Below are positions 28,924 to 34,882 of a stretch of 36,882 bases of DNA, piece after piece (position 1 is the first letter of the stretch; every line of letters starts with the position of its first letter). The stretch spans positions 1 through 36,882 of IMG/VR virus record IMGVR_UViG_3300048927_000793; one strand, written 5' to 3'. The notes beneath the pieces are model-generated. The model did not search any database. It was not told the origin of the DNA and was given only the letters and a program-made list of their open reading frames with translations. The position numbers and the translations under genes were made by a program. This DNA comes from a virus.

Positions 28924-29109
28924 ATGCCAACAACACAGCACATCAAAAGCTGCCGGGTGTACCTACACCCCGCAGCTGCAACGTCCAAAGCTTCTGTAGA
29001 AGCCATTCAGCGCCGTACCGGCTTGCTGATCATCACATCCCCAAAACAGCGCCACGCCCAGCTGAACCAAGCTGACGACTCGGCGCCATGGGGAGGCGAT
29101 GCAGCATGA
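28924..29109 (+). CDS. Small hypothetical protein, first gene after PL
   Basis: A 61-residue protein (MPTTQHIKSCRVYLHPAAATSKASVEAIQRRTGLLIITSPKQRH...), slightly basic, without recognised motif; the segment 'SVEAIQRRTGLLII' may be a helix-strand. It starts about 30 bases after the PL-like -10, so it is the first product of the left operon. The next gene overlaps its stop as ATGA. The ribosome site is weak (AAGAG). Confidence 0.6.
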   Translation: MPTTQHIKSCRVYLHPAAATSKASVEAIQRRTGLLIITSPKQRHAQLNQADDSAPWGGDAA

Positions 29110-29678
29110 ACCGACTCCTTATTGGCCTCACCGGCCCTGCCCGTACGGGCAAAAGCACCACCGCGCATCACCTCGCGATCGAGCACGGCTTCGAGTGCTA
29201 CGCCTTTGCCGATCCGCTACGCGACGCACTGATGGCGATCTTCCAGCTGTCGCCAGAGGACTTTGAAGGCGCCGCAAAGGAAGAACCAATCGCGTGGTTG
29301 GGCCGCTCCCCTCGCCAACTGATGCAGCTGCTCGGCACCGAGTGGGGCAGACACATGATTAGCGCGAATCTCTGGGTCGATTTGGCCGAACAGCACCTAG
29401 ATGCTGTGGCCAACGCATCGTGGCCTGCGCCAAATTTCGTGATCAGCGACCTGCGCTTTGAGAACGAGGCTGACTTTGTCCGCAAACGAGGCGGCGTGGT
29501 CGTGCATCTGCAGCGCTTCGACGCACCAAAGGTCAATCCACACCTCAGTGAGGCGGGAATATCGCTTCACAAGGATGACCTGGTGTTGGTGAACGACGGC
29601 GATCTAGCAAGCCTTCATCACCAGGTCGAGGCGGTGCTGCATGCGCTGCATGCTCGCCAGACCCGATCAGCAGCCTGA
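29106..29678 (+). CDS. Deoxynucleoside monophosphate kinase-like P-loop protein
   Basis: The 190-residue protein has Walker A GPARTGKS (residues 10-17), then 'YAFADPLRDALMAIF' and 'GRSPRQLMQLLGTEWGR', which match phage dNMP kinases of the T4 gene 1 type. 'FVISDLRFENEADFV' carries the Asp-Leu-Arg-Phe-Glu motif of the family. It would phosphorylate dNMPs to supply phage DNA synthesis. GGAGG precedes ATG 29106. Confidence 0.85.
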   Translation: MNRLLIGLTGPARTGKSTTAHHLAIEHGFECYAFADPLRDALMAIFQLSPEDFEGAAKEEPIAWLGRSPRQLMQLLGTEWGRHMISANLWVDLAEQHLDAVANASWPAPNFVISDLRFENEADFVRKRGGVVVHLQRFDAPKVNPHLSEAGISLHKDDLVLVNDGDLASLHHQVEAVLHALHARQTRSAA

Positions 29679-31881: not shown

Positions 31882-32256
31882 ATGCAACCAATCCACTTCA
31901 TCATCTTCGCACTTGCCGCCGTGCTGGCTTTCAGCCTGTGCCGGATCGGCGCCAAAGCGATTGCCAAAGACCGCCGCTACCAGTTCGCCCAAGGCAGAGC
32001 TGCAGGCCGCATCGAAGGTCGCGCCGAGCGCGTGACTGAACACAACGCCCTGCAAATGGCTGACCTCCAGACGCTGCTGGAGATCTCCAACACTCTGCAC
32101 GTGGCCCACAAGACCTGGCGCGCGATCCCTCACACGGACAAGTACCAGGCGCAAGCCACGAAGCACCTCAACGACCTGAACAGGATCGCGAAGCGTATCC
32201 GTGACGAAGGCGAGGCCGGCACAACCGGGGCCGTGGAACAGGAGCAGGCAGCATGA
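31882..32256 (+). CDS. Single-pass membrane protein with coiled-coil tail, unknown
   Basis: The 124-residue protein has an N-terminal transmembrane helix (about residues 5-21, IHFIIFALAAVLAFSL). A highly charged helical region follows (AKDRRYQFAQGRAAGRIEGRAERVTEHNALQ...) and a Glu/Gly-rich end. AGGAG precedes the ATG. It is coupled to the HD phosphohydrolase by ATGA. No function is recognised. Confidence 0.6.
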   Translation: MQPIHFIIFALAAVLAFSLCRIGAKAIAKDRRYQFAQGRAAGRIEGRAERVTEHNALQMADLQTLLEISNTLHVAHKTWRAIPHTDKYQAQATKHLNDLNRIAKRIRDEGEAGTTGAVEQEQAA

Positions 32257-32795
32257 GCTGGATTCTCACATTCACCGGTCGCCGCTTCGATCTGCTCGAA
32301 CCTACCGCCGCGATGATTACGCCTGGCGATATCGCGCACGCGCTGGCCCGCATTTGCCGATTCAACGGCCACTGTCGCACGCACTACAGCGTCGCCCAGC
32401 ACAGCTGCATGGTCGCAGACTTGGTGCCTGCCGCCGACCAACTGGCCGCGCTTCTGCACGATGCAACCGAAGCGTACGTCGGCGACATGGTCCGCCCGCT
32501 GAAGGACGTGATGCCGGAGTACCGAGAAATCGAGCACCGCATCTGGCTCGCCGTCTGCGATCGCTTCCTGCTCGACCCAATCCTACCCATCAGCGTAAAG
32601 CGGGCCGACCTCGTTGCCCTCGCCACCGAGCGCCGCGACCTCATGCCCGCCCAGCAGGCCGAGTGGCACTGCTTGAGCGGCATTCACCCGCATGCCGAGC
32701 CGATCCGTCCATGGAACGCGGAGGAAGCCAGCATTCACTATTTCCGCCGCCTGATGGACCTGATGCAGACAGCGCATCGCGGGAGGGCGGCATGA
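32253..32795 (+). CDS. HD-domain phosphohydrolase (YfdR-like)
   Basis: The 180-residue protein has the HD signature: H50 (YSVAQHS), H69-D70 (ALLHDATEAYVGD) and a later Asp ('KRADLVALATER', residues about 116-127). This resembles YfdR and related nucleotidase-type HD enzymes that act on nucleotides. It sits next to the DUF2303 and dNMP kinase genes, which suggests a nucleotide-pool role. Start and stop overlap the neighbouring genes by ATGA. Confidence 0.87.
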   Translation: MSWILTFTGRRFDLLEPTAAMITPGDIAHALARICRFNGHCRTHYSVAQHSCMVADLVPAADQLAALLHDATEAYVGDMVRPLKDVMPEYREIEHRIWLAVCDRFLLDPILPISVKRADLVALATERRDLMPAQQAEWHCLSGIHPHAEPIRPWNAEEASIHYFRRLMDLMQTAHRGRAA

Positions 32796-34882
32796 CGTCT
32801 CTCAAGAAACCTCCGTTCGATTTCAAGACTCAGTATTCATTGGGCTTCAATCCCCAAGATGATGAGATTGTCGTCGATTTCTTCTGCGGTGGTGGCGGCG
32901 CCGGCACCGGCCTGGAGATGGGTCTGGGTCGCAAAGTGAACGTGGCGAAAAACCACAGCCCGAAGGCAATCAGCATGCACACCGTCAACCACCCTGGTGC
33001 GGCGCACTTCACCACCGACGTGTTCGAGGGCGACCCTGACACCGAATGCGGCGGCAAGGCCGTCGGCTGGTTTCACATGTCGCCAGACTGCACGCACCAC
33101 AGCCAGGCAGCCGGCGGCCAGCCGCGCAAGCGCGAGATTCGCAACCTGTCGTGGATCGGGTTGAAGTGGGGCGGCAAGAAGAAACCGCGCGTGATCAGCC
33201 TGGAGAACGTGAAGCAGATCCTGCAGTGGGGTCCGCTGATCGCCAAGCGCGACAAGGAGACCGGGCGCGTCATCAAGCTGGTGACCGTGCTGAACGCCAA
33301 GGGCAAGGAAGTCATCGAGAAGGTTGTCGCTGCACCTGGTGAGGTCGTTCCCGTCGGCCAGCAGTTCCTGGTGCCAGACCCGAAGCGCCGCGGTACCACT
33401 TGGAAGCGCTTCGTGCATCTGTTGGAAGGCATGGGCTACGCAACTGAATGGCGCGTCATCAAGGCTTGCGACTTTGGAGCGCCGACCAGCCGCGAGCGCC
33501 TGTTCATGATCGCCCGCTGCGACGGCCAGCCGATCGTGTGGCCAGAGCCGACCCACGCGAAGAAACCCGCCAAGGGCCAACAGAAATACCGCACCGCCGC
33601 CGAGTGCATCGACTTCAGCGACCTGGGCAAAAGCATCTTCGGGCGCAAGGACGAACTGGCCGACGCCACCAAGCGCCGCATCGCCAAGGGCATGAAGAAA
33701 TTCGTCATCGACAACCCGGTGCCGTTCATTGTGCCGATCGCAAACTGGTCAACTGAAACGGTGCAATCCATGGATGAGCCCCTGCGCACCGTGACCTCCT
33801 ACCCGAAAGGCGGGTCGTTCTCGGTGGTGAGTCCGGTCATCGCACCTGCCACGCACCAGGGAAGCGACCGGGTCAACAATCCACTTGAGCCACTGCCGAC
33901 GGTTACATGCGCCAATCGCGGCGAATTGACACTGGCAACGGCAAATCTGGTGCAGCTGGGCAACGGTGACAAACCTGGTTCCGCACCTCGGGTTGCTGAT
34001 ATGCACGATCCTCTCGGTACGATTATGGCGTCGGGTGGAAAGTACGGTTTAGCCGCTGCGCACCTGGTCAAGTTCCGATTCAACGATGAAGGCAAGGCGC
34101 TGGACGAACCGCTGCCTACCATCACCAGCGGCGGCAATTACCAGCGCCCCGCTGGCGCCGCGCACGCCATGGGCATCGCCACCGCGTTCATGGCTCAGAT
34201 GAATGGCGGGTTCAACACCACCGACGCCAAAAGCATCAACGATCCGATGACCACTGTGACGAACACCGGCAGTCAGCAGCAGCTGGTGACCGCGAGTCTG
34301 CTGCACCTGCGCGGCAACTGTGACGCCCGGGCGGCGGATGAACCGCTGCATACCGTCAGCGCTGGCGGCACGCATCACGGCCTGATGACTGCATTCATGG
34401 AACGCCAGTTCGGCGCCAGCGTCGGCCAGGATCTAAGCGACCCGGCGCCGACCATCACAGCGGGCGGCGGCGGTAAGAGCTCGCTGGTCAGCTTTGAATT
34501 GTCGCCGGAGCATGAAGAAGGCGCGCTGCGCGTCGCAGCATTCCTGATCAGCTACTACGGCACCGAAAACATGAGCGGCTGCGACCAGCCGGCGCCGACG
34601 ATCACGACCAAGGATCGTCTGGGCCTGGTCACCGTCATGGTCAAAGGCACTCCCTACGTGATCGTCGATATCCGGCTACGCATGCTGCAACCGGCCGAGC
34701 TGTACCGGGCGCAGGGCTTCCCGCCGGACTACATCATCACGCACGGCGCCGACGGCAAGCCGTTCACGAAGACCGAGCAGGTCCACATGTGCGGCAACAG
34801 CGTCAGCCCACCGCCGATGGCCGCCCTCGCCCGGGCCAATGATCCGTGGCGTCAAGCTGAACGAATGCTGGAGGCGGCATGA
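32792..34882 (+). CDS. C5 cytosine DNA methyltransferase with repeat-expanded middle
   Basis: A 696-residue protein. Motif I is VDFFCGGGGAGTG (28-40); motif IV is SPDC with catalytic Cys100; ENV (138-140) is motif VI; TSRERLFMIA (232-241) is motif VIII; motifs IX-X are near 'LQPAELYRAQGFPPDYI' and 'MCGNSVSPPP'. Between VIII and IX lie about 380 residues holding eight copies of a 'D-E-P-L-x-T-V-T' unit (starting near residues 327, 365, 405, 438, 483, 516, 549, 598). This is the region where target recognition normally lies. GGGAGG precedes ATG 32792. It may protect phage DNA against restriction. Confidence 0.93.
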   Translation: MTSLKKPPFDFKTQYSLGFNPQDDEIVVDFFCGGGGAGTGLEMGLGRKVNVAKNHSPKAISMHTVNHPGAAHFTTDVFEGDPDTECGGKAVGWFHMSPDCTHHSQAAGGQPRKREIRNLSWIGLKWGGKKKPRVISLENVKQILQWGPLIAKRDKETGRVIKLVTVLNAKGKEVIEKVVAAPGEVVPVGQQFLVPDPKRRGTTWKRFVHLLEGMGYATEWRVIKACDFGAPTSRERLFMIARCDGQPIVWPEPTHAKKPAKGQQKYRTAAECIDFSDLGKSIFGRKDELADATKRRIAKGMKKFVIDNPVPFIVPIANWSTETVQSMDEPLRTVTSYPKGGSFSVVSPVIAPATHQGSDRVNNPLEPLPTVTCANRGELTLATANLVQLGNGDKPGSAPRVADMHDPLGTIMASGGKYGLAAAHLVKFRFNDEGKALDEPLPTITSGGNYQRPAGAAHAMGIATAFMAQMNGGFNTTDAKSINDPMTTVTNTGSQQQLVTASLLHLRGNCDARAADEPLHTVSAGGTHHGLMTAFMERQFGASVGQDLSDPAPTITAGGGGKSSLVSFELSPEHEEGALRVAAFLISYYGTENMSGCDQPAPTITTKDRLGLVTVMVKGTPYVIVDIRLRMLQPAELYRAQGFPPDYIITHGADGKPFTKTEQVHMCGNSVSPPPMAALARANDPWRQAERMLEAA

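Follow-up and report, generated by a model that had tools for sequence, protein, structure and literature searches.

A Phage C5-Cytosine Methyltransferase with an Array of Exchangeable Units, Each Probably Specific for a DNA Word of Its Own

Introduction

The closest described systems are the multispecific C5 enzymes of Bacillus phages (M.SPbeta mtbP, M.SPR, and those of phi3T, rho11 and H2), which are phage-encoded like the enzyme considered here, carry several recognition domains in one polypeptide and have two to three targets. The exchange of recognition modules to change specificity is known from the Type I HsdS proteins, which belong to another enzyme class, with two modules per subunit and methylation of adenine. 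M.BssHII, a multispecific bacterial C5-methyltransferase, also combines one enzyme with several targets. The arraying of recognition domains within a single phage methyltransferase chain is known and is described in a review (PMC12707154). The target-recognition domains of C5 enzymes carry the “TL motif”, with the strict consensus P[STCA]PT[ILV][TASV], and two DNA-contacting trimers, the N-TL and C-TL trimers, have been named for the targets GGCC, CCGG, GCGC and CGCG (Neely and Roberts 2008, PMC2413257).

The gene described here was found in a virus record, IMGVR_UViG_3300048927_000793, the whole of which (36,882 nucleotides) is called the window. Several tandem TL-motif segments between motifs VIII and IX, the trait of the Bacillus-type enzymes, are also present in the window protein, in which there are eight in a relaxed form. 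Judging from the sequences, most of these units are probably distinct recognition cassettes in a combinatorial, non-redundant array, and a probability of about three in four is given to this reading. Each module would then probably let the methyltransferase mark a different DNA word. No published account of this methyltransferase family was found in the literature searched (titles, the beginnings of abstracts, and passages). Measured against that literature, the features that appear to be new are the family itself, which is separate and widespread and reaches ten units per enzyme, the turnover and permutation of its cassettes, and a composition with one unit of each kind.

The Gene, Its Neighbours and the Catalytic Core

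The methyltransferase gene with its motifs and units and the phosphatase gene upstream of it lie on the plus strand. The C5-cytosine DNA methyltransferase gene (32792..34882) encodes 696 amino acids, and its ATG overlaps the stop codon of the gene before it. The protein matches the Pfam family PF00145 (E 3.6e-23; 82.9 bits, above the curated cut-off of 22) and PHROG 23072 (E 2.2e-102), and its score with the NCBIfam dcm model is 64.8, below the cut-off of 100.65. The upstream neighbours are a gene for a DUF2303 protein, a short ORF that matched no family, and the gene of a putative dNMP phosphatase (32253..32795), which overlaps the methyltransferase start by 4 bases. The phosphatase matches PHROG 318 (E 1.2e-73), its Pfam YfbR-like match is below the cut-off of that family, and a gene annotated as an HD superfamily hydrolase occupies the equivalent position in phage Turba. 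Downstream, a weakly excisionase-like ORF and an integrase follow. Genes for portal, baseplate hub, tape measure and tail sheath occur elsewhere, and because of the integrase, the excisionase-like ORF and the contractile-tail genes, the window has the appearance of a temperate, contractile-tailed phage. The scan of 14 distinct window ORFs, several of which gave no family at all, named no restriction enzyme. The same phage also carries a deoxynucleoside monophosphate kinase (29088–29675), and together with the dNMP phosphatase, it forms a pair that could possibly remodel the nucleotide pool.

Motifs I, IV (with its Cys), VI, VIII, IX and X are all present in the window protein and in order, and from its sequence the catalytic motifs are intact. 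Their conservation was followed in an alignment of the window protein with 105 relatives (106 proteins, 1997 columns), which is very gappy because the number of units differs among proteins. Some of the invariant residues belong to motifs that were at least partly demanded by the filter with which relatives were selected. This holds for D29, F31, G33–G36, G40 and E42 of the AdoMet-binding motif I (VDFFCGGGGAGTGLE, 32873..32917), of which the filter demanded a part, for the catalytic Cys100 in SPDC of motif IV (33080..33091), and for G668, N669 and V671 in GNSV of motif X (34793..34804). The filter had no influence on E138, N139 and V140 in ENV of motif VI (33203..33211), on T232, R234 and R236 in TSRERLF of motif VIII (33485..33505), or on R630, M631, L632, E636, L637 and A640–F643 in the motif IX region (RLRMLQPAELYRAQGFP, 34673..34723), all of which are invariant in the 106 proteins. 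In the AlphaFold2 model, the pLDDT of the catalytic parts is mostly 84–98, with a dip at residues 101–120. The modelled catalytic part adopts the HhaI/DNMT1 fold, matching 2i9k (Z 26.1, rmsd 3.0, 263 aligned) and 7xib (Z 27.7, rmsd 2.5, 270 aligned) in VIA-align.

Eight Units between Motifs VIII and IX

The interval from motif VIII to motif IX of the window protein holds eight P-x-x-T-[VI]-[TSM] motifs, counted with the pattern P-x-x-T-[ILV]-[TASVM]. Their T residues are at positions 333, 370, 410, 443, 488, 521, 554 and 603, which gives distances of 37, 40, 33, 45, 33, 33 and 49 residues from motif to motif. In 5000 shuffles of the protein, the mean number of motifs was 0.22 and the maximum 3. 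The initial annotation, which had reported eight motif copies every 33–49 residues, is thus confirmed by the motif positions and the shuffles. Its description of the unit as “DEPLxTVT” holds for the P-x-x-T-[VI] core, which is fixed, and less so for the preceding acidic DE, which is a preference only. It had also counted about 380 extra residues; the interval between motifs VIII and IX is indeed about 385 amino acids long, but when placed by alignment against the roughly 90–100 amino acids of M.HhaI, only about 290 of these are extra.

With its flanking loops, the array spans 33698–34630, and the range of 33770–34610 that was first reported covers the eight anchors. Each unit was recognized by a unit HMM match, and boundaries and a type were assigned to it. 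Unit 1 (type 19, containing PIANWSTETVQSMDEPLRTVTSYPKGG) lies at 33698..33820, and unit 2 (type 11, APATHQGSDRVNNPLEPLPTVTCANRGEL) at 33821..33931; the counterpart of the latter is missing from one relative, L277, as a clean gap of 36 amino acids. Unit 3 (33932..34051, QLGNGDKPGSAPRVADMHDPLGTIMASGGKYGL) belongs to type 73, which is small, with 6 members, and which by eye resembles the GYGER..GQ..PR kind. It is followed by unit 4 (type 168, HLVKFRFNDEGKALDEPLPTITSGGNYQRP, 34052..34150), unit 5 (type 82, FMAQMNGGFNTTDAKSINDPMTTVTNTGSQQQ, 34151..34285) and unit 6 (type 193, LLHLRGNCDARAADEPLHTVSAGGTHHGL, 34286..34384). The type of unit 7 (type 161, FMERQFGASVGQDLSDPAPTITAGGGGKSS, 34385..34483) also occurs in a Paenibacillus genome (L417), at 51% identity. 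Unit 8 (type 125, FLISYYGTENMSGCDQPAPTITTKDRLGLV, 34484..34630) is terminal, the last before motif IX. The units are mutually different, and the motif strings have the same order in most of 78 close relatives; therefore, the window units are not recent tandem copies.

Likeness to Target-Recognition Domains

The units occupy the interval between motifs VIII and IX, which is the usual place of recognition domains. Of the 1741 units collected from the window protein and its relatives, 96% have P at position −3 and 95% have T or S at position 0. The pattern P-x-x-T-[ILV]-[TASV], which by sequence is a relaxed form of the TL motif (PMC2413257), is met by 77% of the units, and the strict consensus by only 4%. 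The relaxed motif occurs 1340 times in 59,391 residues inside the arrays and twice in 115,319 residues outside them; the outside count is the informative side because the units were partly found by the same motif. Residues that distinguish the unit types are mostly located roughly between −20 and −8 and between +4 and +9 relative to the T, and also at −1, while the P at −3 and the T at 0 carry 0.04 and 0.13 bits of type information. As the types were defined from sequence, what counts here is solely how the positions differ from one another. The positions of the two DNA-contacting trimers of PMC2413257 fall within these type-distinguishing stretches.

The likeness does not extend to a relationship detectable by sequence. 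Homology of the units to HhaI or to SPbeta-type proteins was sought in this way and gave no significant match. The unit profile matched no methyltransferase in the PDB, and on the HhaI core it performed no better than shuffles, 472 of 2000 scoring as high. There was no match at iE 0.01 in 21 SPbeta-type proteins (mtbP and 20 frames from 26 loci), a profile test that is blind to structural likeness, and the best score on mtbP was −2.0 bits. Targets could not be assigned from the N-TL and C-TL trimers either: the units checked contain no trimer of the sets that PMC2413257 gives for GGCC, CCGG, GCGC and CGCG. GGG is found at +5 to +7 in 71 units, including unit 7 of the window, and HhaI has the same. 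Structure prediction had been proposed as a way of seeing whether each unit folds as one module, and both models have low confidence in the array: pLDDT is below 50 over most of it in the window protein and about 41–56 (block means) in a relative with three units.

Because the units have no match in PDB methyltransferases, the HhaI core or SPbeta-type proteins, membership in the Bacillus family is unsupported. By a simple pattern, which undercounts, the six SPbeta-type enzymes listed have one or two TL-like segments, in contrast to the 2–10 units found here. Exchange, permutation and the absence of duplicates further set the present family apart. It is the anatomy and the evolution of the array that favour the reading of the enzyme as one that works like a multispecific methyltransferase.

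Relatives and Array Length

A tblastn search (E 1e-5) matched 268 of 50,697 phage records, Pseudomonas phage F116 included. The F116 DNA methyltransferase (YP_164274.1) is a direct homologue, 63% identical over its length, and has 8 units that, by eye, stand in another order and are partly of other kinds than those of the window. It is annotated only as a DNA methyltransferase; PHROG families 23072 and 116 are kin. The gene of F116 (L082) lies between other methyltransferase genes, so that three stand in a row. Among plasmid records, 570 of 72,556 matched a relative with three units (L404), 211 of them over 80% of its length.

Seven scans and 20 named phage records, with loci L081 and L376, gave 536 loci, many contigs having been fetched repeatedly. 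After L081 and L376 were set aside, a frame passing the filter was found at 500 of the 534 loci. Among the 34 that failed are sound enzymes in which a different residue follows the Cys (L041, L307), an intein carrier (L353) and truncations at contig ends. Dereplication at 90% identity left 297 proteins, the window protein included. Units were counted with a profile of 42 columns; inspection by eye shows that the profile overlooks degenerate units, as in phiH. The initial annotation had asked whether the repeat number varies among homologues, and it does, from 2 to 10 units in the 297 proteins. Two units were found in 12 proteins, three in 36, four in 57, five in 31, six in 31, seven in 41, eight in 55, nine in 27 and ten in 7. 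The spacing of units across the relatives has a median of 35 residues (5th–95th percentile 32–49). By the profile, F116 has 8 units, haloarchaeal phiH 3, Gordonia phage Bjanes7 3 and a Nostoc phage 8. A stricter pattern gave 6–9 units in 78 of the 80 closest loci, and the other two had failed an earlier filter. In the homologues examined, among which none of measured specificity was seen, the same eight units are thus not a fixture, as their number varies from 2 to 10 and their order also varies.

Gain, Loss and Permutation of Units

Arrays of closely related enzymes differ by whole units. From 2845 candidate pairs with different unit numbers, alignment yielded 1613 single-unit indels, counted in pairs of 85% identity or more, and these pairs are non-independent events; the inserted units, grouped at 60% identity, make up 41 kinds. 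The indels are mostly 32 amino acids long (877), followed by 35 (374), 36 (137) and 39 (78), and they leave the rest of the reading frame intact, as would be expected if one recognition domain could be lost while the others stay. In the pairs L273/L292 and L177/L185, a difference of one unit is accompanied by 98% identity elsewhere. Among 430 unique proteins, the unit number differs in 30% of the 99 pairs with a core identity of 98% or more, a share that reaches 90% for pairs with cores 50–60% identical. The fraction climbs with divergence, with one dip (0.53 at 90–95% and 0.45 at 80–90%). This count replaced an earlier one on dereplicated sequences, which was biased toward differing arrays.

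The order of units is also not fixed. It is permuted in 213 of the 3114 representative pairs that share two or more reciprocal-best units at 65% identity or above, for example in L166/L174 and L345/L346. At the DNA level, five permuted unit pairs were 78–86% identical, and therefore those exchanges are not recent; a sixth pair differed in length. Units shared at 80% identity or more between cores less than 50% identical were found in 7 of 3477 pairs, and none were shared at 90% or more; in this sample, then, distant cores have seldom exchanged units very recently. At least five of these seven are of the GYGER kind. This turnover resembles the shuffling of HsdS in that presumptive recognition modules are exchanged, and differs from it in enzyme class, the number of modules and the methylated base.

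As for the source of the units, tandem duplication was considered and set aside in the case of the 41 inserted kinds that were examined, whose identity to the other units of the same array never exceeds 0.47. A search of flanking DNA for a reservoir of free cassettes gave 31 matches, one of which lies outside the methyltransferase gene, and the others examined were methyltransferase frames that had failed the filter. That one is a stray short frame downstream of the methyltransferase gene (L387:5166-5378) with one unit of terminal type and the start of motif IX, which is probably the remnant of a second copy.

One Unit of Each Kind

Average linkage at 50% sorted the 1741 units into 201 types, 95 of them singletons, and the 53 types with at least five members together hold 1497 units. 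The largest type, with 195 units, appears to be terminal, and the members of one cluster of 38 invariably close the array. Unit kinds found in both Bacillota and Proteobacteria number 8, with example pairs 49–76% identical.

No enzyme repeats a non-terminal unit. None of the 3481 pairs of non-terminal units within the same enzyme reaches 50% identity; shuffles lead one to expect 109 such pairs when all units are drawn on, 82 for the same position from the end and about 263 within the same core clade, for which the minimum of 200 shuffles was 215. When terminal units are included, the highest identity among the full 4925 within-enzyme pairs, aligned directly, is 0.545, with 11 pairs at 0.5 or above and none at 0.6 or above, and 3.9% of 20,000 random unit pairs between enzymes are at 0.5 identity. 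The figures for both the 3481 and the 4925 pairs owe something to vertical descent from arrays whose units were distinct beforehand. The 41 inserted kinds give a further comparison: none is at 0.55 or above to the units of its own array, with 5.96 expected by random draw (P(0) = 0.0015). Types from loose single linkage, by which 152 of 191 proteins had a repeated type, were dropped, as direct identity shows no repeats above 0.55. The recombinational loss of near-identical duplicates could be partly behind this non-redundancy, and it is insufficient because diverged duplicates (0.55–0.8) are missing too.

A Possible Mode of Action and Its Alternatives

These observations can be brought together in a model of an orphan, prophage-encoded C5-cytosine methyltransferase in which eight interchangeable recognition cassettes would take the place of a single recognition domain. 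Each cassette of about 32–49 residues would consist of an upstream loop, the near-invariant P-x-x-T-[VI] hinge and a downstream loop. One shared catalytic core would flip and methylate the cytosine, while different cassettes would dock on different short DNA words. Each unit, or most of them, would thus bind DNA, and units would differ in their targets. One enzyme could thereby block many host restriction enzymes. Units are gained, lost and reordered in phages, presumably via recombination, with at most one of each kind kept; both this route of exchange and the anti-restriction purpose of the array are inferred. The chances are evenly balanced that there is, beyond this, a shared pool of at least about fifty single-copy cassette kinds (53 types have no fewer than five members) that phages of different hosts have passed to one another, with each phage carrying a short and non-redundant list of the restriction sites to be hidden, an order-free “passport array”.

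The initial annotation had offered two readings of the expansion, several recognition modules or a decoy surface. The likeness to the TL motif, the gain and loss of cassettes, their permutation and the one-of-each composition speak for the former, and the low confidence of the unit models speaks against it. For a non-enzymatic decoy or a protein-binding surface, nothing but the size of the array can be cited and no support was found. The catalytic residues are kept, in part through selection by the filter, ENV and the arginines of motif VIII are invariant in the 106 aligned proteins, and the units carry a TL-like motif in the slot of recognition domains, so that a decoy is scarcely credible. 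One composite long target, with the units reading successive bases in a TALE-like logic, would suit the tandem order and the fairly regular spacing, with its median of 35. It is very improbable, since near-identical enzymes gain, lose and permute units and would change the whole site each time, and the spacing is uneven as well (5th–95th percentile 32–49).

Two other explanations are each somewhat less remote, although unlikely. The units might jointly form a broad DNA-binding surface for methylation of low specificity in very short cytosine contexts, with no targets of their own. The presence of up to ten units, none with the known target-diagnostic trimers, would agree with this; a generic surface, however, needs neither different kinds in each enzyme nor kinds common to Bacillota and Proteobacteria. 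Specificity might instead be set by the terminal unit or a few units, with the others being structural, adding avidity or being inactive “pseudo” units. The largest type looks terminal, members of the cluster of 38 always take the final position, the chain passes from the last unit into motif IX, and array length varies widely while the catalytic motifs are kept. Yet one would not expect units that are inactive or purely structural to avoid duplicates or to keep loop residues specific to their kind.

If the units are recognition cassettes, they would provide natural C5 recognition modules by the dozen, separable and cleanly bounded. Enzyme pairs found in nature one module apart would then make the reading of DNA by C5 enzymes testable module by module, and the modules could serve as exchangeable parts for targeted methylation tools. 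Such a family would also show how a single phage gene could answer many restriction systems together.

Unusual Members of the Family

Some relatives have features of their own. The intein carrier (L353:1097-4405) has an intein-type insert of 366 amino acids at the catalytic Cys, which starts SPDC-FPSGTMILTDRG and ends VVHN-C-KHFSKAKGG. A zinc-ribbon-like CxxC...CxxC insert is found in 4 of the 296 representatives other than the window protein (L165, L171, L196, L424), in one unit kind, where it closely follows GYGER within the upstream loop. Metagenome assemblies labelled Clostridia (L410) and “Alistipes” (L411) have matches identical in coordinates, identity and E-value; L411 was grouped with the Bacillota in the counts of kinds, and its label may be a binning error. 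In Halomonas phage QHHSV-1 (L087), the homologue is annotated as two pieces of a site-specific DNA methylase, and the gene in this record may be broken or its sequence may contain errors.
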